This document shows positions 2,843 to 26,853 of a stretch of 64,000 bases of DNA, one piece after another. The notes below the pieces were generated by a model that did no database searches, was not told the origin of the DNA, and saw only the letters and a list, made by a program, of their open reading frames with translations. Within the stretch, counting starts at the first letter, position 1, and each line of letters begins with the position of its first letter. A program made the position numbers and the translations under genes. Location of the stretch: positions 248,001 through 312,000 of the forward strand of contig NZ_SSMQ01000002.1 of assembly GCF_005144585.1 (NCBI RefSeq), in the 5' to 3' direction. Origin of the DNA: Polyangium fumosum. Lineage in GTDB: Bacteria; Myxococcota_A; Polyangia; Polyangiales; Polyangiaceae.

Positions 2843-4079
2843 AATAGATCACCCGTCCCTTCTTCTGATACGCGTCTTCGTACTTCTTCATCTGGCGTTT
2901 GCCCGCTTCTCTGCCCGTCGGCGTGTTCGGCTTCAGCTCGATCGGGTTCTCATTTGGTGTGAGCGCATCGGGCCTCAGCTCCTTGCCATCCTTCTTGATC
3001 CGCGGGTTTGGGTTCCACCCCTCTCCCTCCTTCTCCTTCACCTTCTTCTTGAACTCCTCATGCACCTCCCTCCCACGCTTGGTCGCCGGCGTCTCGCCTC
3101 CCCGCTTCGGTTTGGCCGGCGGTGGCGTGTCCGCCGCGCTCCCCTTGCCCCCCTGCCCTGCCGCACCCCCGTTCGGCTTCCCGACCGGCTTGGTCCTCGT
3201 CTTGACCGTCGACTTCGGCGCCGGCTGCGGCGAGCCACTCCCCGTTGACAAAGACTGCCCATGGTGCTTCCCGGCGGGCTTCTTCTTGTCCTTCGGAATG
3301 AAGTTCTGGTGCCTCGCATGGCAGACGCCCTGGAGGCACTCGTAGGCGCGATCGAGCCGCGCGGTCTCCTCCGGGGTTTGGCTCCACTCCTCATACCTCC
3401 ATACTTCACCCGGCTGCACCTCGCTCGGGTCCTTCGGCACGGGCGCCTCGACCGGGCGCGGTCGATTCTCCGCGACGGCCGGCTCTCCGCCGGGCCGCTT
3501 GACCAGAATCCTCGTGCACGTACGTGAACCCGTGCCGCGGCGTTGCCGCGTCTGGCCTGGCTCCCGATACGCCGTGCACCGCTCCCGCTCCGGCGGTCTC
3601 GCAATTGGTCGCGGCAGCGGTTTCGGCAGCGGCTTCGGCCGCTCGGTCTCCTTGGTCTCGTCCTTCTTCTCTGCGCCCTCCTTCTCCTTCTCCGCGAGCT
3701 TCTTCTCCAGCGGGGGCGGCGGCGGCTTGTCGCAGGGGAGATGCTGGAACGCAATCCCTAGAAGCTTCCGGCTCTCGGAGGGCGCGTTGGCATCGTGGAT
3801 ATAAACGGCCTTGGCCTCGCGGCTCTCCAAGAGCTCGTCGAGCGAGAGGAACGTCGTTCGAGGCGTCCCGTCCCCCACGTCGTACCAATAACGCGCATTC
3901 GGGTCGACGTGGGGATGGCGCCGACAGATACGGAACAACCTGATTCCGTTCGGCGTTTTCTGCGCCCACGCCTGCGTATTCGTGCCTGTCGCGGCGCACC
4001 CGAGGAGCCATACCGAGACGCCAAAAGCGACGAGCACGAGGAGCCAAAGCCGTACAAAGCGGTTCGACAACCAGGCCAT
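2832..4079 (-). CDS. SitA-like lipoprotein with C-terminal PD-(D/E)xK nuclease toxin domain
   Basis: A 415-residue predicted lipoprotein. The signal peptide ends in LLGC, with Cys28 as the lipidated residue. A domain with several Cys follows, then a long Pro/Lys/Glu-rich, low-complexity linker (about 115-335). The last 80 residues look like a restriction-endonuclease-fold toxin: GREVHEEF near 336, RPD with Asp371, and IELK with Glu381/Lys383, followed by QMKKYEDAY. This spacing matches the D...ExK catalytic core. A lipidated N-terminus with a variable C-terminal nuclease is the layout of Myxococcus SitA toxins, which pass between kin cells by outer-membrane exchange. The coupled downstream DUF4304 gene would be the immunity partner. 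Toxicity is inferred. Confidence 0.7.
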   Translation of the reverse strand: MAWLSNRFVRLWLLVLVAFGVSVWLLGCAATGTNTQAWAQKTPNGIRLFRICRRHPHVDPNARYWYDVGDGTPRTTFLSLDELLESREAKAVYIHDANAPSESRKLLGIAFQHLPCDKPPPPPLEKKLAEKEKEGAEKKDETKETERPKPLPKPLPRPIARPPERERCTAYREPGQTRQRRGTGSRTCTRILVKRPGGEPAVAENRPRPVEAPVPKDPSEVQPGEVWRYEEWSQTPEETARLDRAYECLQGVCHARHQNFIPKDKKKPAGKHHGQSLSTGSGSPQPAPKSTVKTRTKPVGKPNGGAAGQGGKGSAADTPPPAKPKRGGETPATKRGREVHEEFKKKVKEKEGEGWNPNPRIKKDGKELRPDALTPNENPIELKPNTPTGREAGKRQMKKYEDAYQKKGRVIYYEP

Positions 4080-15592: not shown

Positions 15593-15666
15593 ACGCTGGA
15601 TATTTCTTCGTTGGCAAGGACGGACGACGCTTGACCAGGCGGCCGCCTTTTGCCATCTTCGCCCGC

Positions 15667-15753
15667 GGAGAGGTGACCGAGAGGCCGAAGGTGCCTGATT
15701 CGAAATCAGGTGTACCCTCACGGGTACCGCGGGTTCGAATCCCGCTCTCTCCG
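15667..15753 (+). tRNA. tRNA-Ser (anticodon CGA)
   Basis: Folds as a class II tRNA. Acceptor GGAGAGG pairs with TCTCTCC (one G-U), the anticodon stem CCTGA/TCAGG encloses loop TTCGAAA (anticodon CGA, reading UCG), a long variable arm with TACCC/GGGTA follows, and the T-arm is GCGGG-TTCGAAT-CCCGC. The discriminator is G, typical of serine tRNAs. The 3' CCA is not encoded; the next bases are CAC. Confidence 0.95.
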
Positions 15754-15822
15754 CACAGACCAGCGTAAACGTGACGCGCGCCGATGGCTCCTAGCTACCG
15801 GCGCGTTGTCGCGAGTGCGCTT

Positions 15823-15912
<90 letters not shown>

Positions 15913-15954
15913 AACGATAACGCGCTCGATGATGCGTCCGGACGCACGCCGCAC

Positions 15955-17205
15955 CTACTCGATGCGGAGCGCCTCGATGGGATCGAGCCGCGCAGCACGC
16001 CAGGCTGGGTAGAAGCCGAAGATCACGCCCGTCACGAGCGCGAGGCCAAGACCGAGGCCGATGGACCACGGCTCGACGTGGTGATCCCAGCGGCCCACCA
16101 CCTGCGTCATCACCTGGGCCAAGAGCCACGAGATGCCGACGCCGCCGAGCACGCCGAACGCGCCGCCGATGGAGGAGACGGCCGCGGCTTCGAGGAGGAA
16201 CTGGGCCAGGATGGCGCGGCGTGGCGCGCCGACGGCGCGGCGGATGCCGATCTCGCGCGTCCGCTCCGTCACGGTCACGAGCATGATGTTCATGATGTTG
16301 ATGCCGCCGACGAGCAGAGCCATGAGGCTCGTGCTCAGGAGCAAGAGCTCCACGACGCTCAGGATGAGCCGATCCTGACTGCTGCTCTCGTCGTCCTCGA
16401 TCTTGAAGTTCTTCACGCCGAGGTGCCTGCGCAGGAGCGTCGACGAGACGATGCTCCGCAGCGTGGAGAGCGGCGTCGTCACCTCGGCCGTGTCCGTTCG
16501 TCGCACGTAGATGCGGTTCACCGCGTGGTTCGGCGAGAGGATCGCGTCGTAGGTCGTCTCGGGGACGAGCACCTTCCGGTTCCAGATGTCGGTGCTGTCC
16601 GTCGAGCCGAAGATCGGACGATTCACGAGCACGCCGATCACCGTCCACGTGTGCCCCTCGACGAGGATCCGAGGGAGTTCGTCGGCTTCGAACCCCGCGA
16701 AGCCCCGATCGCCGAAGAGCTTCTGCCAGACCTCATGGCCCAGGATGCAAACCCTCGCGCGACGTTCGAGGTCCGCGTCGACGAAGAAACGACCTCGCGC
16801 AAGTTCGAGGCGATAGAGCGAGCGCGCGGCCGGCGTGGCGCTGACGAGCGTGATGCTCGTCTTCTTGTCGCTCGCGTGTGCCTCCGTTCGCTTCGTCGAC
16901 TCGCTCTGCGCATCAAAGCCGCGGATGCCGCCGGACGCGCGGAGCGCGCGGGCATCGTCACGCGACAGTTCACGCCGCGTGCGCTTGCGGTCTCGCGCGT
17001 TGGCCTCTTCGCGGCGCACCTGGACGAGGTCGCTCTCGGTGGCCTCCTGGCTGGCGCGCAGCAGCGCGGCTTCGCCGCTTCGAAGGAGCGAGGCGAGGAC
17101 CACGATGGAGCCCGATCCGATCATCACGCCGAGCAGCGTGAGCAGGGCGCGCAGCCGCCCGCCGACGACGAACCGCACGGACCGGAGCAGATCGAGGAAC
17201 CTCAT
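15955..17205 (-). CDS. MacB-type ABC transporter permease (second permease)
   Basis: A 416-residue permease with the MacB/LolC topology: N-terminal transmembrane helix (RALLTLLGVMIGSGSIVVLASLL), a large periplasmic domain (about 45-285), and three C-terminal helices. The FtsX-like core shows MALLVGGINIMNIMLVTVTERTREIGIRRAVGAPRRAI. It is the last gene of a four-gene operon, with an ATGA overlap with the preceding permease. Two different permease subunits suggest a heterodimeric exporter. The substrate is unknown; the divergent RiPP cluster makes peptide export or self-protection plausible. Confidence 0.85.
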   Translation of the reverse strand: MRFLDLLRSVRFVVGGRLRALLTLLGVMIGSGSIVVLASLLRSGEAALLRASQEATESDLVQVRREEANARDRKRTRRELSRDDARALRASGGIRGFDAQSESTKRTEAHASDKKTSITLVSATPAARSLYRLELARGRFFVDADLERRARVCILGHEVWQKLFGDRGFAGFEADELPRILVEGHTWTVIGVLVNRPIFGSTDSTDIWNRKVLVPETTYDAILSPNHAVNRIYVRRTDTAEVTTPLSTLRSIVSSTLLRRHLGVKNFKIEDDESSSQDRLILSVVELLLLSTSLMALLVGGINIMNIMLVTVTERTREIGIRRAVGAPRRAILAQFLLEAAAVSSIGGAFGVLGGVGISWLLAQVMTQVVGRWDHHVEPWSIGLGLGLALVTGVIFGFYPAWRAARLDPIEALRIE

Positions 17206-18425
17206 CGACGCATCGCCACGACAGGATCGAGGCCACCCGCGCGACGCGCCGGCAACCAGCCAAAACCCACGCCCAGGCCGAGCGAAACGAGCAGCGCGGC
17301 CGTGGCCGCTCCCGTCGAGACGGAGCCGACCCAGGTCGGGATGGCCGACGCGACCAGCGGGGCCGCGACCAGCGCGACGAGCGCGCCTGCGGCCGTGCCG
17401 AGCAGACCGCCGAAGCCGGAGAGGAGCATGGCCTCGACGAGGAACTGCGCGCCGATATCGCGCGGCGTCGCGCCGAGGGCCTTGCGGATCCCGATCTCGC
17501 GCACGCGCTCCGAGACGCTGACGAGCATCATGTTCATCACGCCGATCCCGCCGATCAGGAGCGCGACGCCGGCGATCAGGCCGACGACGGCCTCCATGAT
17601 CAGGAAGATCATCTCGAACTTCCCCATGATCGAGCTGAAGTCGTAGATCGTGAAATCGTCGACGCCGCGATGGCGCGCGACGAGGCGCGCGTTGACGATG
17701 CGCTTGACCGCGTCGTTCTGCGTCGCGTCGTCGGTCTTCGCGACGACCGTCGTTTCGAATCGCGTGCGCGGCAAAAGCTCCGCCACGGTCTCGAGCGGCG
17801 CGATGAGCAGGTCGACCCAATCGAACCCGAACCCGACGCCGAAGCGCTCGTTGTTCGCGAGGACGCCGACGACCCGGCACCGCAACACGCCGATGGTGAC
17901 GTTTTGCCCGAGCGGATCACCATCCCAGAGTTTTTCCGCGAGCTTGTGGCCGACGACGCAGACCCGCGCGTGGCGTTTGTTCTCCTCCTCGGTGAACGCG
18001 CGGCCTCGACCGATGCGCATCCCGTATGCCGCGAAGAAGCTCTCGTCGCTGGCGACGAGGGACGTGCGCTCCTGTTTCCCTTTCGACGAGAGGATGTCCT
18101 TCGTGCCCAGCGACGCGTACATCGCCGTCTCGACGACATGCGGGACCTGATCGAAGTACCGCGCCTTGTCGCGCAGTTCGAAGCCGAGCGTGTACATGCC
18201 CTGCTTGCGCGCGGCGCGCTCCGGCACCTTGGGCACGAAGAGGAGCAGCCGAGCGCCGCCGATCTCCTCGATGCCGCGGCTGAGCGTCTGGAGCCCGCTC
18301 TCGGCGAGCGACGACATGAGGACGATGGCGAACGCGCCGATCATGATGCTCGTGACCGTCAGGAGCGAGCGGAGCTTGTGCGCCACGAGCGCCTTGGCGG
18401 CGATCACGAGGTGACTCGTCCACAT
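17202..18425 (-). CDS. MacB-type ABC transporter permease (first permease)
   Basis: A 407-residue MacB-like permease: N-terminal helix (RSLLTVTSIMIGAFAIVLMSSL), periplasmic MacB domain, and C-terminal FtsX-like helices with ALLIGGIGVMNMMLVSVSE then REIGIRKALGATPRDIG. It is a paralogue of the downstream permease and much closer to canonical MacB in its C-terminus. Its ATG shares one base with the TGA of the membrane-fusion protein gene (TGATG), and its own stop overlaps the next start (ATGA), so the operon is tightly coupled. Confidence 0.88.
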   Translation of the reverse strand: MWTSHLVIAAKALVAHKLRSLLTVTSIMIGAFAIVLMSSLAESGLQTLSRGIEEIGGARLLLFVPKVPERAARKQGMYTLGFELRDKARYFDQVPHVVETAMYASLGTKDILSSKGKQERTSLVASDESFFAAYGMRIGRGRAFTEEENKRHARVCVVGHKLAEKLWDGDPLGQNVTIGVLRCRVVGVLANNERFGVGFGFDWVDLLIAPLETVAELLPRTRFETTVVAKTDDATQNDAVKRIVNARLVARHRGVDDFTIYDFSSIMGKFEMIFLIMEAVVGLIAGVALLIGGIGVMNMMLVSVSERVREIGIRKALGATPRDIGAQFLVEAMLLSGFGGLLGTAAGALVALVAAPLVASAIPTWVGSVSTGAATAALLVSLGLGVGFGWLPARRAGGLDPVVAMRR

Positions 18426-19543
18426 CACATCTGCGTCTCGTTGGCGGCGGCAGACCCCGGCTCGAGCAGGACGCGGTTCCCCTCCTCGATCCCGCGCACC
18501 ACCTCGACCTCGCGATCGGTGCGCGCGCCGAGGACGACCTCGACCTCCTCCGTCGTTTGTCGGCCCTCGGGGCCATCGTGGACGCGCGTGACGCGCGCCT
18601 TGCCGCCGCTCTCCCGGACCGCCTCGATCGGCAGCGTGAGGACGTCGCGGCGTACGTCGAGACGAATCCGCACGTCGGCGGACATCCCCGGCTTGATCTG
18701 CGCGTCGGCCGCCGTGAGCTCGGCCTCGATCGGGAACACGTCCACGTCCCTGCCCTGCGGGCGCGTCGACGCCGGCGCGATCTTCGTCACGCGCGCCTCG
18801 TAGGTTTTCCCGGGGAGCGCGTCGAGCGTCAGGGTCGCGGCCTGCCCGAGTTGAATCTTCGCCACGTCGATCTGATTGACCTCGATTTTGACGACCAGCG
18901 TCGAGAGGTCGGCCACGACGAGCAGCGCCTCGCCATTGAAGGTGGCCTGCACGCCGGGCGTCACGACCTCCCCCGGCTCGATTCCGCGCTGGATCACCGT
19001 GCCGGCCATCGGCGCGACGATCTTCGTGTATCGAAGGCGATCCCGGGCGATGTCCACCGCGACGCGCGCCTGCCGCACGGAGATGTCCTTCGTGGCCAGG
19101 TCGTGCCGGGCCGCATCGAGCTCGTGCGCGGGGACGACGGACCCCTCGACACCCGCGGTTTTCCGGCCGAGGACGAGTTTGGCATAAGCAACGGACGCCT
19201 GCGCGTTCGCGAGCTCGGCTTCGGCGCGGGCGAGCTCGCGTTGATAGTCCGTCGGATCGAGGACGACGAGCAGGTCTCCCTTTTTCACCTGCGCGCCTTC
19301 GTCCACGAGGACCTCGGCCACCTGGCCAGGGACCTTCGATTTGAGCTCGACCTTGTTGCGCGCCTCGACCTTCCCGGTCTCGACCACCTCCAGGACCAAC
19401 TCCGAGCGTTTCGCCGTCACGACGAGCGCGGGGTCGAGCGGGGCCGCTCCTGCGCCGCCCCGCTGCGAAATGACGACGCCGAGGGCGACGATCACGACGA
19501 GCGCGAAGAGCCACGGCCACCGCCGTTTCCGCTTCGCGCTCAT
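18425..19543 (-). CDS. MacA/HlyD-type periplasmic adaptor (membrane fusion protein)
   Basis: A 372-residue adaptor bridging an inner-membrane ABC pump to an outer-membrane channel. One N-terminal anchor (PWLFALVVIVALGVVISQ), then the split biotinyl-lipoyl domain (KVPGQVAEVLVDEGAQVKKGD and, later, APMAGTVIQRGIEPGEVV), an alpha-helical hairpin (about 110-175) and beta-barrel domains (TLTLDALPGKTYEARVTKI). Second gene of the exporter operon, with an ATGA overlap with the ATPase gene. Confidence 0.9.
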   Translation of the reverse strand: MSAKRKRRWPWLFALVVIVALGVVISQRGGAGAAPLDPALVVTAKRSELVLEVVETGKVEARNKVELKSKVPGQVAEVLVDEGAQVKKGDLLVVLDPTDYQRELARAEAELANAQASVAYAKLVLGRKTAGVEGSVVPAHELDAARHDLATKDISVRQARVAVDIARDRLRYTKIVAPMAGTVIQRGIEPGEVVTPGVQATFNGEALLVVADLSTLVVKIEVNQIDVAKIQLGQAATLTLDALPGKTYEARVTKIAPASTRPQGRDVDVFPIEAELTAADAQIKPGMSADVRIRLDVRRDVLTLPIEAVRESGGKARVTRVHDGPEGRQTTEEVEVVLGARTDREVEVVRGIEEGNRVLLEPGSAAANETQM

Positions 19544-20274
19544 GCCGTGGCTCCCTGCGCGGCTGCGGCCGCCCCTGGGTCGGCCTCGACAGACCTCGCC
19601 ACGTCGGAGAGCAAGGTCCCGTCCTTGAAGGTGATGACCCGGTCCGCATAAGCGGCGATGGCCTCGTCGTGCGTCACGACGACCACGGTCATTCCCTGGG
19701 CGTGGAGCTCGCGAAAGAGGCCCATCACCTGCACCGTCGTGGCGGAGTCGAGCGCCCCCGTGGGCTCGTCGGCGAGCAGGAGCAAGGGCTCATTGACGAT
19801 CGCGCGGGCAATGGCGACGCGTTGCTGCTGGCCGCCGGAGAGCTGGTTCGGCAGATGATCGATACGCTCGGCGAGGCCGACGCGCACGAGCGCGCGCCGC
19901 GCGCGTTCTCGGCGTTCCGATGGCCGGATACCCGAATAGATCATCGGCAGCTCGACGTTCTGGAGGGCGTTGTCCCGGGGCAGGAGGTTGAACGACTGAA
20001 AAACGAACCCGATCTTGCGGTTTCGGAGGTGCGCGAGCTCCACCTCGTCGAGCGCCCCCACATCCTCTCCATCGAGACGATATCGCCCCTCTGTCGGCCG
20101 GTCGAGGGTCCCGATGACGTTGAGCATCGTCGACTTCCCCGACCCGGAGGCGCCCATGATGGCGACCATCTCGCCCTTCCCGATCTCGAGCGAGACATTG
20201 CGGAGCGCGTGCACCTCGATCTGCCCCATCCAGTACACCTTCGTGATCGACTCGATCTGGATCAGGGGATCCAT
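19540..20274 (-). CDS. MacB/LolD-type ABC transporter ATP-binding protein
   Basis: A 244-residue ATPase that heads the exporter operon. Walker [10 protein letters not shown] (about 41-49), Q-loop VFQSFNLLP, signature [14 protein letters not shown], Walker [13 protein letters not shown] and the H-loop VVVTHDEA are all intact. In classic MacB this domain is fused to the permease; here it is separate, as in LolD-type systems. It is divergent from the RiPP precursor gene 293 bp away, and the two transcripts may share regulation. Confidence 0.92.
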
Positions 20275-20514
20275 GAACGGAACCTCTTCCGGCCGTAGCG
20301 GTCGCGCCCGCGGAAGGGGCCGATGCTACGAGACTTCGTCTCACGCCACCCAGAAATTTCATCGCTCCGCACAAAAAACGCAGGAACAGCATCGTCGCAG
20401 GCTTCCCCGAGCATTCCGTTGCAACATAAATTGAATTCTACAACACGCGCCCACCCCAAGCCTTCTCCGAAGACGACGCGCCAACGAATGTTCTTGTGGG
20501 ACGACGCGGAGATT

Positions 20515-20520
20515 GATAAT
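20515..20520 (+). promoter_or_regulatory. Candidate -10 element for the RiPP operon
   Basis: The 293-bp divergent gap before the precursor gene is locally AT-rich. GATAAT at 20515-20520 is a 5/6 match to a sigma-70 -10 box and would start transcription about 40 bases before the precursor ATG. The upstream TTGTGG (20494) is only a partial -35 with a 15-bp spacer, so an alternative sigma factor or activator is possible. A second AT-rich patch lies at 20420-20445. Confidence 0.35.
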
Positions 20521-20567
20521 TCTGGGTATTGCTCCTCACCGGAGTAATTCACGAGCAGGAGAAAACC

Positions 20568-20720
20568 ATGAACGACATCGAGAAGCAGATCCAGGATCGT
20601 CTCGCCGACGAGGACAGCATGGACTTCGAAGGTGCCGAGGACCTCATCGAGGCCCACATCGACGAGGTCACGGGCGGCGGCTTCAGCCTGCACGTCCAGT
20701 TCAAGCAGCAGCAGAAGTAA
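20568..20720 (+). CDS. RiPP precursor peptide with double-glycine leader
   Basis: A 50-residue peptide preceded by AGGAG 6 bases before the ATG. The leader is acidic (net negative, rich in D/E) and ends in DEVTGGG. Aligned to the double-glycine consensus with cleavage after Gly37, it gives Leu at -12, Ile at -7, Val at -4 and Gly at -2/-1. That leaves the core GFSLHVQFKQQQK. Phe39, His42 and Phe45 recur every third residue, giving FSL, HVQ and FKQ triplets of the aromatic-X-X form used by cyclophane-forming radical SAM maturases. The genes that follow encode such a maturase and a C39 exporter. No Cys, so not a sactipeptide or lanthipeptide. The modification pattern is inferred. Confidence 0.8.
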   Translation: MNDIEKQIQDRLADEDSMDFEGAEDLIEAHIDEVTGGGFSLHVQFKQQQK

Positions 20721-20749
20721 ACCTCCACCACGTGGAGTGAGTCCGCTGG

Positions 20750-20781
20750 GCGCGGCCTCCTTCTTTATAAGGAGGCCGCGC
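20750..20781 (+). terminator. Strong hairpin between precursor and maturase genes
   Basis: A perfect 13-bp stem (20750-20762 with 20769-20781) and a 6-base loop (ctttat) lies 30 bp after the precursor stop and 47 bp before the radical SAM start. There is no U-run, so it may act as a partial terminator or as an RNA-stabilising hairpin that keeps precursor mRNA in excess over enzyme mRNA. A smaller CTCCAC/GTGGAG hairpin precedes it at 20723-20737. Confidence 0.7.
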
Positions 20782-20828
20782 TCGGTGGCTCGAACGCGGG
20801 CCTTGGATACGAAAGGAATCAGCGCGAG

Positions 20829-22076
20829 ATGCTTCAGGACATCCGTCGAACCGCCGAGTATCTGAACATCGTATTCAAGGTAAGTGAGCGCTGCAACCTC
20901 AAGTGCGACTATTGTTATTTCTTTTTCGCCGGCGACGACAGTTGGAAGAAGCATCCCCCGCTTGTGTCGCCCGAGGTCGTCGACGCTCTCGGGGCGTTCT
21001 CGGCGCGAGCGGCGAAGAAGTACGGCATCGAGCGGGTGACGCTCATCTTTCACGGCGGCGAGCCGCTGCTGATGCCACGCGCACGATTCGCGGACATGTG
21101 CGAGAGGCTCCGCAAGCACGAAGACGGATTCCGCTTCGACTTCGGCCTGCAAACGAACGGGGTCCTCGTCCGCGACGAGTGGATCGATCTCTTCGAGAAA
21201 TATCAGATCTCCGTGGGTGTATCGCTCGACGGGCCACCCGCCGTGAACGACAAGCACCGGCTCGACCTCAAGGACCGCGGCTCGTATGACCGCACGGTCG
21301 CGGGGCTACGCCTGCTCCAGGAGGCCGCTGCACAAAAAAGGATCAGCGCGCCTGGGCTCCTCGCGGTGATCAACCCCGGGGCCGACGGCGGCGCCGTGTA
21401 CCGTCACTTCGTCCACACGCTGGGCGTGAACGACATGAGCTTTTTGACCCCGGATTACACGTGGGATTCGGGCGTGAACGAGGAGATCGTCCGCGGCGTC
21501 GAGCGATATTTGCTCTCGGCGTGCCGCGCGTGGCTGCGCGACAAGAACCCCAAGGTCCACATCCGCGTCTTCTCGGAGCTCCTGTCCGCGATGGTGAGCT
21601 CGCAAGCCATGGACCTGCTCCGAACGTATCGCGACGACTATCGAAACATCATCTCCGTCTCGTCGAACGGCGACCTGGCCCCCGAGGATACGCTGCGCGT
21701 CGTCGATCCGCGCTTCGCCTCCATGGGCCTCAATATCGAGACCCATGGCCTCGAAGACCTCGTCGAGTCGGACGCCTGGCGCGAGCAGGCCGAGGCGTCG
21801 CTGAGGCGACCGGAAGGGTGCAAGGCGTGCGGATGGTGGAACATCTGCAAGGCCGGGCGACCGATCAATCGTTTCTCCAAGGCCCTCCGGTTCGACAACA
21901 AGTCGCTGTATTGCAAGGGCCTGCAGGACATCTACGCCGAGATCGCCGCATTCCTCGTCCGGAACGGGATTCCCCTCTCCGAGATCACGAGCAGGATCGC
22001 CGCGATCGACCCTGCGCCCGCGCCCGAACCGGGGGTCGCCCCGGAAAACGGGCAACTGGCGTCCCCTCCACGCTGA
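20829..22076 (+). CDS. Radical SAM/SPASM peptide maturase (FxsB-like)
   Basis: A 415-residue enzyme. The radical SAM 4Fe-4S motif CxxxCxxC is at Cys22/26/29 (CNLKCDYC), in a setting (LNIVFKVSERCNLKCDYCYF) typical of FxsB/anSME-like maturases, followed by FHGGEPLL and QTNGVL. The C-terminal SPASM region contains GCKACGWWNICKAG and a late Cys in SLYCKGL, for auxiliary clusters. It sits between the precursor and an HExxH protein, the trio seen in FxsB-type RiPP loci. It probably installs carbon-carbon cross-links at aromatic residues of the core. The product chemistry is inferred. Confidence 0.88.
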   Translation: MLQDIRRTAEYLNIVFKVSERCNLKCDYCYFFFAGDDSWKKHPPLVSPEVVDALGAFSARAAKKYGIERVTLIFHGGEPLLMPRARFADMCERLRKHEDGFRFDFGLQTNGVLVRDEWIDLFEKYQISVGVSLDGPPAVNDKHRLDLKDRGSYDRTVAGLRLLQEAAAQKRISAPGLLAVINPGADGGAVYRHFVHTLGVNDMSFLTPDYTWDSGVNEEIVRGVERYLLSACRAWLRDKNPKVHIRVFSELLSAMVSSQAMDLLRTYRDDYRNIISVSSNGDLAPEDTLRVVDPRFASMGLNIETHGLEDLVESDAWREQAEASLRRPEGCKACGWWNICKAGRPINRFSKALRFDNKSLYCKGLQDIYAEIAAFLVRNGIPLSEITSRIAAIDPAPAPEPGVAPENGQLASPPR

Positions 22077-22089
22077 GCCGGACAAACCC

Positions 22090-23256
22090 ATGGCAGACAT
22101 CTCCTCCCACGCGGACATCTTCGCGTCGCCCGTCCACGGCGACGCCGTCGGCGCCGTGCGTTCGCTCGCGGCAGGTCGCCTCCATGCCACGCGCCGCCGG
22201 GTGGCGGACGTATTGACGCGGGCCGGAAAGGACGAGGCCGCCCGCGCCCTCGTCGCGTTCACCCCGGGCCGAGGCAGCGCGTGGCGCCCCGAGATGGGTT
22301 TGGCCCTGCTCGCCCTGCGAAACGACGCGCCCGCGCTCGCCGCGCTCCAGCTCGCCGCGCTCCACGGCGGCATGGGCGGGTCGGGCGTCGTGGAGGTCGA
22401 TATCGACACGCCGCAATGGCTTTACCTCGACGGGTGGCTCGAACCCATTCAAGGGGCGTGTCGCCTCACGGCGGGGGAAAACAAGACGACCGTTCATTCG
22501 GACCTGGGCCACGCGACGTACGTCCTCTCGGCGGAGAAAAACCTCGTCCCGGCCGAGGCGCCGGGCGGCCCGTGGAGGGTTTTTCCGAGCGGCGGTCTCG
22601 CGCCGCGGTACGTCACGGTCAGCGGGCTGCGCCATTCCGTCGAGGGATTCCCCTGGATGGCGGCCCCCCCGCCCGCCCCGCCTGCGACCGTAGCCGCGCC
22701 GCAGGAGCGCATCGACGTCATTCGCGCCGCGTGGCGGCTCTTGCTGGAGAGCGCGCCGCTCTTCGCGCCGTGGGTCGCGAGCACGGCCGCGGGGTGCTTG
22801 CTCCTCGACCGGAGCGGAAGTCACGAGGCCCAATCCGGCAGCTCCTACGATCATCCCGGGCTCATTGCGATCGAAACGCCCGACGACGCGGCGTTCTGCG
22901 GCGAGCTTCTCGTCCACGAGTGCGCCCACCAGCACATGCTGCTCTACTCGATGGTCGCACCGTTCGTGCAGACAGGGAGCGACGAAGTGTACTACTCTCC
23001 CATCAAGCGGGCGCACCGGCCGATCGAGCGGGTCCTCTCCGGGGCGCACGCGGTGGGGAACATGATCGTTTACTACCACGCGCTCCGCCGGACGACCGGG
23101 CTCGACGCTGCCTCGCAGGATCGATTCAACGTCCATCAGCGCTGGTTCGACGAGGATTACCGGCCCGCCCTCGACCAGAGCAAGACCCTCACGGAGAGCG
23201 GCCAGCGATTCTGGCGGGGCGTGTGCAACGCGGTCGATTCCGCAGCACGACAATGA
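22090..23256 (+). CDS. HExxH-motif peptide-modifying enzyme (mod_HExxH-like)
   Basis: A 388-residue cytoplasmic protein with a HECAH motif in LLVHECAHQHMLLYS (about residue 278) and no signal peptide. Proteins of this HExxH type accompany FxsB-like radical SAM enzymes. Some recent members are reported to be iron/2-oxoglutarate peptide beta-hydroxylases rather than proteases. A metallopeptidase role cannot be excluded. The N-terminal part (40-230) is variable. It starts 13 bp after the radical SAM stop and overlaps the next gene by ATGA. It likely acts on the same core peptide. Confidence 0.72.
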   Translation: MADISSHADIFASPVHGDAVGAVRSLAAGRLHATRRRVADVLTRAGKDEAARALVAFTPGRGSAWRPEMGLALLALRNDAPALAALQLAALHGGMGGSGVVEVDIDTPQWLYLDGWLEPIQGACRLTAGENKTTVHSDLGHATYVLSAEKNLVPAEAPGGPWRVFPSGGLAPRYVTVSGLRHSVEGFPWMAAPPPAPPATVAAPQERIDVIRAAWRLLLESAPLFAPWVASTAAGCLLLDRSGSHEAQSGSSYDHPGLIAIETPDDAAFCGELLVHECAHQHMLLYSMVAPFVQTGSDEVYYSPIKRAHRPIERVLSGAHAVGNMIVYYHALRRTTGLDAASQDRFNVHQRWFDEDYRPALDQSKTLTESGQRFWRGVCNAVDSAARQ

Positions 23257-23471
23257 GCGAAAGCAAGGCGAGCGAGAGCCAGGAAAAAGGCGGCAAGAGC
23301 AACCGGCGGGACAATCATCGACTCTACCGCCCGGAGGCGGTGGCCGCGCACGCCACGCGTGGCGCCGGCGAGCCGTGGGAAGGCCGGCTGCCCGCCGAGC
23401 ATGGGATTCTCGCCGTCCTGACGTTGCTGGCGGCGGCCGGCCTCGTCGCGTTGTATTGGGGAGCCCGCTGA
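23253..23471 (+). CDS. Small single-pass membrane protein of the RiPP operon
   Basis: A 72-residue protein: hydrophilic Ser/Lys/Glu-rich N-terminus (first ~45 residues), then one C-terminal transmembrane helix (HGILAVLTLLAAAGLVALYW) ending GAR. The ATG overlaps the stop of the HExxH gene (ATGA) and its stop is 4 bp from the exporter gene, so it is translationally tied to both. It could tether the maturation enzymes to the exporter, or act as an immunity peptide. No family recognised. Confidence 0.65.
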   Translation: MSESKASESQEKGGKSNRRDNHRLYRPEAVAAHATRGAGEPWEGRLPAEHGILAVLTLLAAAGLVALYWGAR

Positions 23472-23475
23472 GCCC

Positions 23476-25587
23476 ATGGCCAGCGTCGCCGAAAGCGAAG
23501 CCTCGCCCCCCCGCCCCGCGCGAGCCGTCCCCATCATTCTGCAAGGAGAGCCCAGCGAATGCGGGCTCGCGTGCCTCGCCATGGTCGCCTCTTCCTGGGG
23601 GCTCGAGGCCGACCTCGCGGCGCTTCGCGCGAAGCTCACCACCACGCCGCGTGGACTCAGCCTGCGCATGCTGATGAGCCTCGCGGCGGCGCTCGGCCTC
23701 GCGGCGCGCCCCGTGCGCATCGGCCTTCACCGCCTCGGCGATCTGAAGACGCCCGCCATTCTCCACTGGAACATGGACCATTTCGTGGTCCTGGAGAAAC
23801 TCACGGGCGACGTCGCGTCGATCGTGGACCCTGCGCGGGGCCGCGTGCGCATGAAAATCGACGCGGTATCGCCCTCCTTCACCGGGATCGCGGTCGAGCT
23901 CACGCCCACGGATGCGTTCTCCCGCGAGCCCATCGCGCTCTCGCGGAGCTTCCGGCGGGCGTGGATCGACGACCCGCACCTGCGCTCGGTCGCGCTTCGG
24001 GCCCTGTGGCTCACGGTCCTGCTCCAGGCATCCATTGTCTCCCTGCCTTTCGCATATCGGTCCCTGATCGACCGTCACCCCACGGCCGGCACATCGGACC
24101 CAGCGATGCTGACGATCCTCACGGGCATTGCCTTGATGATCGTGGTGCAGGCAGGCGCGTCGTGGACACGCGGGGTGCTGGTCACGCGGTTCGGCAATCT
24201 CTTCGTCCACCGCGTCTCCGCGCACATCGTCGGGCGTCTCTTCTCGCTCCCGGTGTCCTTCTTCCAGCGTCAGATCCTCGGCGACGTGCTCGCGCGCGTC
24301 CGATCGGTCGACGCGATCCGGCGCTTCGTCACCGATCGGGCGATTCCCCTGCTCATCGACCTCGCGGTCAGCGTGGTGACCGCCGCGCTGATGATCCGGT
24401 TCAGCCCGAAGCTCGCTGCGATCGTGATCCTCGGCCTCGCGATCGAGACCACGATGCGGTTCGCAGCGCTGCCGCGGCAACGCGAGCTCTCCGACGAGCT
24501 CTTGCACGCCGAAGGAAAAGAGCTCGCCCGCCTCCTCGAATCGATCCGCGCGGTGCAAGCCATCAAGCTCGCGGGGCGCGAGGCCCAGCGGTTCGCGTTG
24601 TGGGAGAACGACCTCGTCCGTGTCCTCAACGCCAACATGCGCCTGAGCCGCCTGCAGACCGGCGTGGAATCGGCAGCGTCCACCATCGGGGCCCTCGAAT
24701 GGGTGCTCGTCCTCGGCATCGGGGTGCTCGGCGTGGGCGCCGATCCCGTGCCGCTCGGCACCCTCTTCGGCTTCCTCGCGTATCGCGGCGTGTTCCGTGA
24801 GCGGTTCGGGACGCTCACCGAGAACCTGTCCTCCCTGCAGCTCGTCGGCGTCCACCTGCGTCGGCTCGACGACCTCATGCTCGCCGAAGCGGAGCCCGTG
24901 GGCGGACGCGACATGCCGGTCGACGGCGCGGGCGCGCTGTCGCTGAAGAACGTCCGCTTCCGGTACGCGGCGACGGAGCCGCTGGTGCTCGACGACGTCT
25001 CGCTGGAGGTCCCGGCCGGCGCGTGCGTGGCGATCGTGGGTCCGTCCGGGAGCGGGAAGTCCACGCTCATCAAGATCATCCTTGGCATCGAGACGCCGAG
25101 CGAGGGCGACGTGCACCTCGACGACGCCTCGATCCGCGACGTCCACCGGCACGGCTGGCGAGAGCGCTTCGGCACCGTCATGCAGGACGACACGCTGCTC
25201 GCCGGCTCGATCGCCGAGAACATCGCCTTCTTCGACGCGACGATCGACATGGACCGGGTCCGCGCAGCGGCCCGCGACGCCTCGATCGCCGACGAGATCG
25301 AGGCGATGCCGATGGAGTACGGCACGCTCGTCGGGGACATGGGCGCGCAGATCTCAGGGGGCCAGCGGCAGCGGATCCTCATCGCGCGCGCCCTCTACCG
25401 CCAGCCGAAGATCATCCTCTTCGACGAGGGCACGGCGAACCTCGACGCCGACAACGAGACGCGCATCGCGGCCGTCCTCGCCAACCTGGCGCCGACGCGC
25501 ATCGTCGTCGCGCATCGTTCGCACCTCGTCTCGGTCGCCGACATCGTCTACGAGGTCCGCGGCGGACGCGTCACCCGGATGCGCTGA
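23476..25587 (+). CDS. C39-peptidase-containing ABC exporter (PCAT)
   Basis: A 703-residue bifunctional transporter that cleaves double-glycine leaders and exports the core. The N-terminal C39 peptidase has catalytic Cys in GEPSECGLACLAMV (about residue 33), His in WNMDHFVVL and Asp in IVDPARG. A six-helix type 1 exporter membrane domain spans about 175-460. The ATPase has Walker A GPSGSGKST, signature ISGGQRQR and Walker B ILFDEGTANLD, where Gly replaces the usual Ala/Pro after the catalytic Glu. It ends the RiPP operon. Its specificity matches the GG motif in the precursor. Confidence 0.92.
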   Translation: MASVAESEASPPRPARAVPIILQGEPSECGLACLAMVASSWGLEADLAALRAKLTTTPRGLSLRMLMSLAAALGLAARPVRIGLHRLGDLKTPAILHWNMDHFVVLEKLTGDVASIVDPARGRVRMKIDAVSPSFTGIAVELTPTDAFSREPIALSRSFRRAWIDDPHLRSVALRALWLTVLLQASIVSLPFAYRSLIDRHPTAGTSDPAMLTILTGIALMIVVQAGASWTRGVLVTRFGNLFVHRVSAHIVGRLFSLPVSFFQRQILGDVLARVRSVDAIRRFVTDRAIPLLIDLAVSVVTAALMIRFSPKLAAIVILGLAIETTMRFAALPRQRELSDELLHAEGKELARLLESIRAVQAIKLAGREAQRFALWENDLVRVLNANMRLSRLQTGVESAASTIGALEWVLVLGIGVLGVGADPVPLGTLFGFLAYRGVFRERFGTLTENLSSLQLVGVHLRRLDDLMLAEAEPVGGRDMPVDGAGALSLKNVRFRYAATEPLVLDDVSLEVPAGACVAIVGPSGSGKSTLIKIILGIETPSEGDVHLDDASIRDVHRHGWRERFGTVMQDDTLLAGSIAENIAFFDATIDMDRVRAAARDASIADEIEAMPMEYGTLVGDMGAQISGGQRQRILIARALYRQPKIILFDEGTANLDADNETRIAAVLANLAPTRIVVAHRSHLVSVADIVYEVRGGRVTRMR

Positions 25588-25629
25588 GCCGGATCGAGCC
25601 CCCCGCGGTCGACCCCGCTCCGTTTGACG

Positions 25630-26853
25630 TCAAAACGACTTCAGGTTCGACACGATCCGCTTCGAGATGACCACGCGCTGGATGTTCCCGGTGCCCTCGA
25701 AGATGTCGTAGACCTTGATGTCGCGGAACCACTTCTCGAGCAGCGCGTGCTCCGCCTGGAGCGTCCCGTGCGCGCCGCAGACCTCGATCGCATCGATACA
25801 CGCGAGCGTCGCGGCTTGCCCCGCCGCGGCCTTCGACATGCTCGCCTCCTTCGCGTTCGGGATGTTCATGTCCGCGAGGTACGTCGCGCGATGCACGAGC
25901 AGCCGCGCCGCCTCCAGACGTCGCCCGATCTTCGCGAGCTTCTCCGCGATCGCCGCGTACCTCGGGATTGGCCGCCCGAGCACGTAGTTCTGCTTCACGA
26001 AGTCGCGCGCGTACTCGTATGCCGCGCGCCCGATGCCCACGGCCATCGCCGCGACGAGCGGGCGTGTGTTGTCGAAGGTCTTCATCGCCGTCATGAAGCC
26101 CTCCTTCGATCGATACGCCTCCTCGCCGCCGAGCAGGTTCTCCTCGGGCACGCGACAATCCTCGAGCACGAGCTCCGCCGTCTCGTTCGCGCGCAGCCCC
26201 ATCTTGTCCTCGATCTTGCCGACCTCGAACCCGGGCGTCCCCTTCTCCACCACGAACGCGCGATGCCCCGCGCGCCCGAGCGAAGGATCCACGGTCGCGA
26301 AGATGACGGTCCACACCGCGCGGCCGCCGTTCGTGATGTAACACTTGCGCCCGTTCAGCACCCAGTGCGCGCCGTCCTTGCGACAGCTCGTGCGGATGCC
26401 CGCCACGTCGCTGCCCGCATCCGGCTCCGTCAGCCCGTACGCGCCCCACTTGAGCGGGCCCGTATCCATGTCGCGGAACATCCCGAGGAACCGCTTCTTC
26501 TGCTCCGGCGTCCCCGTCGCGCGCACCGGCGGCGCGCCGAGCCCCGGCCCCGGCATGCTGAGCGGGATCGCCGCGTCGGCCCACGCGAGCTCCTCGGCCG
26601 CGATCACCGCCGTGCGGTTCGCCTCGGAGGGCTTGCTCGGATCTCGCTCCTTGCGCGGCGCGCCCTCCTGGAACTCCGCGATGTCGTCCGAGCGGAAGCC
26701 CCTCGACATCATCATGAAGTTGCGCAGGAACGACTCCGGCACCTCCTTGGTGCGATCCATGTCGAGGCTCATCGGCCGGATCACGTGACGTCCGAGCGAT
26801 TGGAGCGCCTCTTTCAGCTCGTGTTGCTTCTTGCTCAAAGCAAATTCGATCAT
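25630..26853 (-). CDS. Acyl-CoA dehydrogenase
   Basis: A 407-residue FAD-dependent acyl-CoA dehydrogenase. Recognisable blocks: GAYGLTEPDAGSD (flavin/substrate region), NGRKCYITNGG, KMGLRANETAELVLEDCRVPEENLLG, the arginine-containing YVLGRPIPRYAAIAEKLAK, and the C-terminal VYDIFEGTGNIQR, which holds the usual end-of-family pattern. It lies 22 bp downstream of a second, divergent member, so the two probably form an operon in fatty-acid or other acyl-CoA catabolism. Confidence 0.92.
   Translation of the reverse strand: MIEFALSKKQHELKEALQSLGRHVIRPMSLDMDRTKEVPESFLRNFMMMSRGFRSDDIAEFQEGAPRKERDPSKPSEANRTAVIAAEELAWADAAIPLSMPGPGLGAPPVRATGTPEQKKRFLGMFRDMDTGPLKWGAYGLTEPDAGSDVAGIRTSCRKDGAHWVLNGRKCYITNGGRAVWTVIFATVDPSLGRAGHRAFVVEKGTPGFEVGKIEDKMGLRANETAELVLEDCRVPEENLLGGEEAYRSKEGFMTAMKTFDNTRPLVAAMAVGIGRAAYEYARDFVKQNYVLGRPIPRYAAIAEKLAKIGRRLEAARLLVHRATYLADMNIPNAKEASMSKAAAGQAATLACIDAIEVCGAHGTLQAEHALLEKWFRDIKVYDIFEGTGNIQRVVISKRIVSNLKSF

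Follow-up and report, generated by a model that had tools for sequence, protein, structure and literature searches.

A small gene block in Polyangium fumosum very probably encodes the making, ring closure, trimming and export of a 13-residue peptide akin to a known group of antibiotic-like peptides, and perhaps its hydroxylation as well. The cluster at its core lies in a 64,000-nt stretch of contig NZ_SSMQ01000002.1 (positions 248,001–312,000; “the window”, whose numbering is used here) and is probably a Xye-type (triceptide-like) cluster for a cyclophane-containing ribosomally synthesized and post-translationally modified peptide (RiPP), to which a predicted hydroxylase has been added. Five plus-strand genes make it up: the gene for a 50-residue precursor (20568–20720) with a predicted C39 cut after residue 37 (VTGG/GFSLHVQFKQQQK); that for a radical S-adenosylmethionine (SAM) maturase (20829–22076) with SPASM-type cysteines, placed on the Xye side of the cyclophane-forming enzymes; that for a predicted stand-alone peptide β-hydroxylase of the α-ketoglutarate (aKG)-HExxH type (22090–23256; H276-E277-x-x-H280 and a conserved H320); that for a 72-residue protein with an [FY]RPEA motif and one hydrophobic stretch (23253–23471), possibly resembling an HlyD N-terminus, for which the evidence is mixed; and that for a C39 peptidase-containing ATP-binding cassette (ABC) exporter (PCAT; 23476–25587), recognized by its Pfam domains. 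The gaps between them are, in order, 108, 13, −4 and +4 bp. A preliminary description had reported five packed genes, and all their positions and spacings are borne out; its starting point, position 20275, is merely where the divergent intergenic region begins, not a cluster gene.

That description had further proposed a short, C39-exported RiPP, cross-linked and perhaps hydroxylated. A short RiPP of this kind, with C39 export, probable cross-linking and perhaps hydroxylation, is supported; kinship with FxsB and the supposed oddness of the GG leader are not. Its “undescribed RiPP class” is too strong, as the Xye layout is already known from the Xenorhabdus locus; the cluster is better seen as a new branch of the Xye-type triceptides that comes with an additional HExxH enzyme. 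What looks new is the family of the precursor gene and the way in which the parts are combined; the basic plan is known. A literature search by titles and abstract openings, with most subscription papers outside its reach, returned nothing on this cluster.

The maturase and its relatives

The Radical_SAM domain of the maturase passes its Pfam cut-off and the SPASM domain reaches 15.6 bits, below the cut-off of 21.5; the cysteines of the CxxxCxxC motif (C22, C26, C29) and C331, C334, C340 and C362 are invariant in six maturase sequences. The best NCBIfam model is XyeB with 327 bits, at 37% identity to XyeB itself, and the DarE model gives 106 bits (cut-off 650). A tree of 25 maturases places the window group (six rows) inside a 12-row clade with XyeB (support 100/99), which also holds the maturases of Paracoccus, Pseudoalteromonas, Roseateles, a Xanthomonadaceae metagenome-assembled genome (MAG) and the draft genome G367 (L003); on the other side (13 rows, 100/99) stand FxsB, YhhB, an haaA-linked maturase and the HExxH-partnered maturases of Rhodococcus and Rhizobium. 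The rows were picked by hand: 14 of the 20 listed from a search that matched 23 records, six of the nine loci of the contig scan described below (the broken L010 and the distant L013 and L014 being left out) and four loci of the phylum other than the window's own, L026 not being added. The best solved-structure match of the maturase profile is the radical SAM domain of ChlB, named a multiple cyclophane synthase in the title of a reference. Matches of the maturase to viperin models in PADLOC reflect general radical SAM similarity.

The earlier label “FxsB-like” is therefore not upheld, the best curated model being XyeB and the maturase lying outside the FxsB/YhhB clade. An FxsB-type system, with an FxsA-like substrate, FxsB, an HExxH protein and an incidental exporter, is very improbable: the FxsB model does match the maturase at 232 bits, and FxsB-side maturases of Rhodococcus, Nocardia and two Rhizobium have neighbours annotated as HEXXH (TIGR04267 matched in all three FxsB-side control records searched), but the score stays below the cut-off of 370, the tree places the maturase on the other side, the core GFSLHVQFKQQQK ends in QQQK and lacks an FxSxx C-terminus, and the leader ends in GG. 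Since the tree does not support FxsB kinship, the claim that a GG leader is unusual for such a maturase falls as well. All five Xye-side leaders read, out of six other Xye-side rows (L003 not included), end in GG or GA, and the Xenorhabdus locus runs xyeA, xyeB, a gene for a 287-residue protein, HlyD and a C39 ABC exporter, so that a GG leader with a C39 exporter fits the Xye pattern. The Xenorhabdus precursor is annotated; those of Paracoccus, Pseudoalteromonas, Roseateles and Xanthomonadaceae were picked by eye. In Roseateles (L012, 7559–7822) a precursor-like open reading frame (ORF) before the Xye-side maturase has a leader ending in LDAVSGG and the core REWWVQATWTMRF; a further one on a Pseudoalteromonas plasmid (L017, 5692–5931), unannotated in PLSDB and likewise before a Xye-side maturase, combines a GG leader with repeated Y-x-Q motifs (YAQ, YGQ, YDQ, YTQ, YSQ).

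A maturase scan of genome contigs gave 44 pattern matches, corresponding to nine loci: L006–L010, from four Acidobacteriota MAGs, at 65–71% identity, two at 32–34% and two at about 26%; the congener G339 carries a 97% copy. Precursor, maturase, 72-residue protein and C39-ABC exporter recur in G339 and the five Acidobacteriota loci. Among 377 genomes of the phylum, and again among 97 relatives, only the window's genome (G000) and G339 carry the close maturase form, two more genomes of the phylum having kin at 32%; samples around the Acidobacteriota carriers yielded 1 of 396 (plus one distant match), 1 of 300 and 3 of 257, none of them a new carrier. The samples overlap and were mostly drawn from larger groups, and the wide searches scored few candidates per genome; in the samples drawn, the maturase branch is rare. 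At L010 (968–1976), a second cluster in the MAG of L006, the maturase gene is broken, lying in two frames with about 50 codons gone, either by decay or through an assembly error.

Precursor cores, predicted rings and the HExxH enzyme

The leader of the window precursor ends in DEVTGG before the core GFSLHVQFKQQQK, and V34, I31 and L26 occupy its hydrophobic positions −4, −7 and −12, in agreement with the C39 peptidase leader rule as given in PMC10885120. The preliminary description had held that lack of a conserved precursor among homologous loci would speak against it; tblastn recovered the precursor in all five Acidobacteriota loci with a close maturase (L006–L010; E values 3e-8 to 1e-15). 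Across these loci the 37-residue leader, ending in TGG or SGG, is alike, and the core is more variable and fast-changing: AFSLHIQFTEPPKPPVLM in L010 and AFSLHIQYTDPPVPPGPIRRY in L007, both HExxH-positive, and LLIVHFNYVEVVEPPHPGPIF in L006, YIIIYHVNFTKVVEHF in L008 and LYFEQSFWSFGQSFSRYIDHQ in L009, which have no local HExxH gene. In L009 the precursor gene (2860–3030) lies 3′ of the maturase gene and its core is SF-rich, perhaps with room for several rings. The G339 precursor has the same 50 residues with one synonymous change, whereas the flanking intergenic stretches agree with the window at 89% (5′ side) and 94% (3′ side); between G000 and G339 the ratio of nonsynonymous to synonymous substitution rates is 0.10–0.12 in the remaining four RiPP genes, and in the pump genes described below it is about 0.04–0.27, though a single change over 50 codons carries little weight alone. 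A plasmid search with the window precursor gave no match.

The motif H-x-[NQ]-[FY]-x-[QEDK] is present in five of the six precursor types and arises in 0.015–2% of shuffles of those five cores; a looser tandem aromatic-x-x motif is found in all six (1–4.5% of shuffles for four types). With BamA in mind as a target, core ends were also considered: three of the six types, the window's not among them, end in F or Y. On the best reading the product would carry tandem His-Val-Gln and Phe-Lys-Gln cyclophanes plus β-hydroxylation, chemistry that we infer throughout. The conserved leader, joined to a variable core, would guide cross-linking by the Xye-side radical SAM enzyme, which would join an aromatic residue to the β-carbon two residues on and so form the tandem three-residue cyclophanes His42-Val-Gln44 and Phe45-Lys-Gln47, perhaps with a third, Phe39-Ser-Leu41; the separate aKG-HExxH enzyme would then β-hydroxylate at least one residue in FSLH[VI]Q, likely after ring closure. 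As precedents, PMC11002830 describes His C2–Cβ links (HaaB and YhhB; to Ala and Arg) and Phe C4–Cβ links (XncB, OscB, MscB), and a preprint (PMC12636437) reports hydroxylation by HExxH enzymes of His and Asp once the cyclophane has formed, and also of Gln.

The HExxH protein matches TIGR04267 (aKG-HExxH) at 76 bits, above the cut-off of 40, with the motif H-E-C-A-H; HExxH and the downstream His are kept in 7/7 aligned family members, two of which are near-identical copies. The sole solved match of the HExxH part under E 0.001 is 22nu, named as a radical SAM protein. By tblastn the gene is present in the window, G339, L007 and L010 and was not found in L006, L008 and L009; in L006 and L008 the maturase and 72-residue protein genes are only 37 and 9 bases apart, and a whole-genome TIGR04267 search had no match in the genomes of L008 and L009. 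The core reads [GA]FSLH[VI]Q[FY] in all three HExxH-positive precursor types, FSLH occurring in none of the other three; likewise leader position −5 is E in the former and A in the latter. A tree of concatenated maturase and exporter sequences joins L007 and L010 to L006 and L008 (86/92) and separates them from the window pair and L009; L007 is 79–84% identical to L006 and L008 as compared with 70% to the window. It is thus suggestive that core type tracks the presence of the predicted hydroxylase rather than overall kinship, or that HExxH was lost together with a change of core.

Several points weigh against this assignment as a whole. The 327 bits of the maturase lie below the XyeB cut-off of 450, and the window precursor (P0005) matches no family; the XyeA model TIGR04495 is not matched by it and finds one of seven aligned precursors, presumably the XyeA row. 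The H motif is missing from the L009 core; shuffling yields the loose tandem motif in 11% of cases for the window core and in 43% for that of L009; the motifs were defined after the cores had been seen, and the precursors are homologous, hence not independent. As for the hydroxylase, the covariation rests on six precursor types, and the branches separating the window, L009 and the rest fall below the star level of support; the same pattern would also result if a few lineages had simply lost HExxH and changed their core. Moreover, the L006 genome has two HExxH genes, of which the first belongs to the L010 cluster (C114) and the second lies outside it, so that the enzyme could act there in trans, which makes L006 a weaker negative.

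These two genes of the L006 MAG, together with the modest shuffle statistics of the window core, count slightly against the cyclophane assignment and in favour of a radical SAM enzyme introducing another modification (another C–C or a C–O link, or epimerization), the triceptides being only the nearest named kin. Such a modification is still unlikely. The 37% identity to XyeB and precursors outside the XyeA family would allow for it, as would the fact that no precedent for a His-to-Gln cyclophane was found in the literature covered; the maturase, however, belongs to a clade with cyclophane-forming enzymes, and all six core types are of the aromatic-x-polar kind, two of them weak against shuffles. 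More improbable again is an HExxH protein that trims the QQQK tail as a protease or, in the manner of PflC/PosC, by oxidative cleavage of the backbone. PflC/PosC are reported to β-hydroxylate consecutive Gln residues and to cut the backbone (preprint PMC12636437), and the window core does end in QQQK, but the QQQ run is absent from the other two HExxH-positive precursors, whose tails are TEPPKPPVLM and TDPPVPPGPIRRY, and there is no ARMD motif. Cyclophane formation followed by β-hydroxylation thus remains the assignment that we favour.

A predicted HExxH partner is unusual on the Xye side; otherwise it was seen in the sample only beside FxsB-side maturases, one match adjoining the FxsB-side maturase L004. 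TIGR04267 had no match in the Xenorhabdus, Paracoccus and Pseudoalteromonas records or the Roseateles genome, and a match below the cut-off lies about 13 kb from the Xanthomonadaceae maturase; the draft genome G367, of the same class as P. fumosum, has three matches above the cut-off (contigs C193 and C44, two of them in tandem on C44), on other contigs than its Xye-side maturase L003. This survey covered 12 chosen genomes or records; a tblastn search of plasmids with the HExxH protein found one record but passed over HEXXH genes that other plasmids have in their annotation, and neither it nor a profile search across 282 genomes is a census. Elsewhere, two HExxH-family genes stand in tandem on the minus strand of L047 (6867–9438; G102, a genome without a P0001 match at 1e-30), and on Rhizobium conjugative plasmids (L065, L066) radical SAM and HEXXH genes overlap by 4 bases behind the gene for a large uncharacterised protein.

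Export and the 9.7-kb block

In the exporter, the Peptidase_C39, ABC membrane and ATPase domains all pass their Pfam cut-offs. Judging from these domains and the leader, the C39 peptidase would cut after GG and the ABC exporter would carry the resulting 13-residue peptide across the membrane from the cytosol, perhaps with the aid of a membrane stub resembling an HlyD N-terminus. The candidate for the latter, the 72-residue protein, is kept in G339 and in all five Acidobacteriota loci (40–53% identity in these), its [FY]RPEA motif preceding the hydrophobic stretch; the Pfam scan found no HlyD domain, and there is no periplasmic barrel-sandwich or hairpin. Seven HlyD adaptors, picked by hand from search hits and from L015, start with FRxE; they represent six genera and each lies next to a C39-type exporter. 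A profile–profile comparison of the 72-residue family with these adaptors gave E 2.3e-5 and a probability of 76%. On the other hand, hhalign against the Xenorhabdus HlyD alone gave a probability of 4.5%; a hidden Markov model (HMM) of the HlyD N-terminus ranks only three of six stubs above all 3000 shuffles (8.7 bits for L007, 4.6 for the window and 4.3 for L006, the best shuffle reaching 9.6), and the reverse HMM search, from the 72-residue family to HlyD, found nothing. The protein may be an HlyD adaptor stub, though an unproven one. A plasmid search with the L006 copy had no match, and the Xenorhabdus HlyD, used as a query against the P. fumosum genome, gave one weak match (23 bits) and missed the window's own fusion protein, which leaves room for an adaptor elsewhere.

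The cluster is part of a block of 9.7 kb (15911–25619, as delimited by blastn, junctions and ARAGORN) between a tRNA-Ser(GGA) gene and an acyl-CoA dehydrogenase gene, the remainder being a minus-strand MacAB-type operon: genes for two MacB-type permeases with MacB_PCD and FtsX domains (permease 2, 15958–17169; permease 1, 17205–18422), a MacA-like membrane fusion protein (HlyD_D23, HlyD_3; 18425–19543) and an ABC ATPase (19540–20274). The operon thus has the permease, HlyD-type fusion protein and ABC ATPase of a MacAB-type pump, ATPase and permease being separate genes; in E. coli MacB they are fused. Because the stub could not reach an outer-membrane duct, the product might be released in the periplasm, and the pump might carry it on or protect the producer, steps that are less secure than the preceding ones. 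A comparable pump, DarBCD, stands beside the darobactin gene, though it is unneeded for making the peptide (PMC9055067).

The block is present in G000 and G339 (96% identity over 20 kb) and absent at the site in the congeners G778, G368 and G370; in these three, 64, 56 and 157 bases separate the same two flanks, the left of which ends at tRNA-Ser(GGA). G292 is uninformative, its right-flank gene having no match at the cut-off. Either gain in two genomes or loss in three would explain this distribution. With 67.5% GC the block is like the window (68.5%); no integrase is among its identified genes, no direct or inverted repeat of at least 11 bases was found between the ~310-base stretches around its ends, and Rfam reports only two tRNAs in 15600–26000. 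These are tandem tRNA-Ser genes (CGA, 15667–15754; GGA, 15823–15910), the block following directly behind the second, a usual type of insertion site.

That the operon is an unrelated neighbour which came to the same site is a serious possibility. FtsX/MacB permeases are very common, and a MacAB operon with 68% DNA identity lies on another contig of G370 (L039, 6084–10369), a congener without the maturase and peptide genes; also, the HExxH-positive L007 has no MacB-type permease of this kind within 17.1 kb. Yet operon and RiPP genes are present or absent as one block at one site and share a divergent intergenic region, and orthologous MacB_PCD/FtsX permeases (65–68%) follow the exporter after 15–25 bp in L006, L008 and L009, three of the four Acidobacteriota loci long enough to show this, the L010 contig stopping short of the region.

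The shared intergenic region (20275–20567) has 56% GC, as against 68.5% for the window, and no sigma-70-type promoter match was obtained in 20200–20900. Between the precursor and maturase genes a plus-strand stem-loop is predicted (20738–20792; 24 pairs, 20 of them uninterrupted, 4/24 G-U; z −5.8), and corresponding hairpins occur in L006, L007, L010 and, weaker, L008 (z −5.1, −4.9, −4.1 and −2.4 over these four); L009, with its precursor gene 3′ of the maturase gene, was left out of this test. A structure of this kind would allow the precursor to be produced in excess over the enzyme.

Known systems and implications

The nearest known system is that of the Xye triceptides, or xenorceptides, of Xenorhabdus, with which the cluster shares the maturase clade, the GG leader, the C39 ABC exporter and a short core with aromatic-x-x motifs (XyeA core WVNVFARWDKAI). 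It differs in a maturase that scores below the XyeB cut-off at 37% identity and a precursor outside the XyeA family, in having His where XyeA has Trp, in its HExxH enzyme, for which TIGR04267 finds none on the Xenorhabdus plasmid, and in a plus-strand cluster that lacks a full HlyD gene, with the 72-residue possible stub and the MacB-type permeases beside it instead; the third Xye gene, for the 287-residue protein, has no evident window counterpart, no search having been aimed at one. Fused radical SAM-aKG-HExxH proteins of the ChlB type, for which cyclophane formation and then β-hydroxylation are reported (PMC12636437), share with the window the radical SAM domain noted above; the window, however, has two separate proteins, a GG leader and a C39 exporter. 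The FxsB/YhhB/HaaA-type enzymes are cyclophane-forming radical SAM kin, some with stand-alone HExxH neighbours, but lie across the starred branch of the tree from the window maturase, and the one HExxH-paired precursor candidate read there (Rhodococcus) has no GG leader and ends in ESAPFFE. PflC/PosC belong to the aKG-HEXXH family by name and offer the precedent for Gln β-hydroxylation; their partner is an MNIO-nitroreductase (MNIO, multinuclear non-heme iron-dependent oxidase) and their leader of the nitrile hydratase-like (NHLP) type, according to PMC12636437. Daropeptides (DarA-DarE-DarBCD) are likewise radical SAM cross-linked and encoded beside an ABC pump and membrane fusion protein (PMC9055067); the window maturase is far below the DarE cut-off, and the window has a C39 exporter.

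The most far-reaching version of our proposal is speculative and rather doubtful: a new branch of bamabactin-like peptides with tandem imidazole- and phenyl-Cβ(Gln) cyclophanes, a β-hydroxyl set by a stand-alone HExxH enzyme that recognizes the same core, and export in two steps, first into the periplasm by C39 exporter and miniature HlyD stub and then outward by a MacB-type pump. If true, the layout of stub plus MacB-type pump would represent a simple two-step export route. The xenorceptides are the products of XyeA. According to a review (PMC12971899) they kill Gram-negative bacteria through a remodelling of BamA, and the new Xye-side precursor families may accordingly be leads for antibacterial peptides of the BamA type. 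The six precursor types are, in addition, a natural experiment on what the HExxH enzyme needs in its substrate, as cores with and without it differ at few shared positions: FSL, Q versus N (in two of three), and E versus A at leader position −5.

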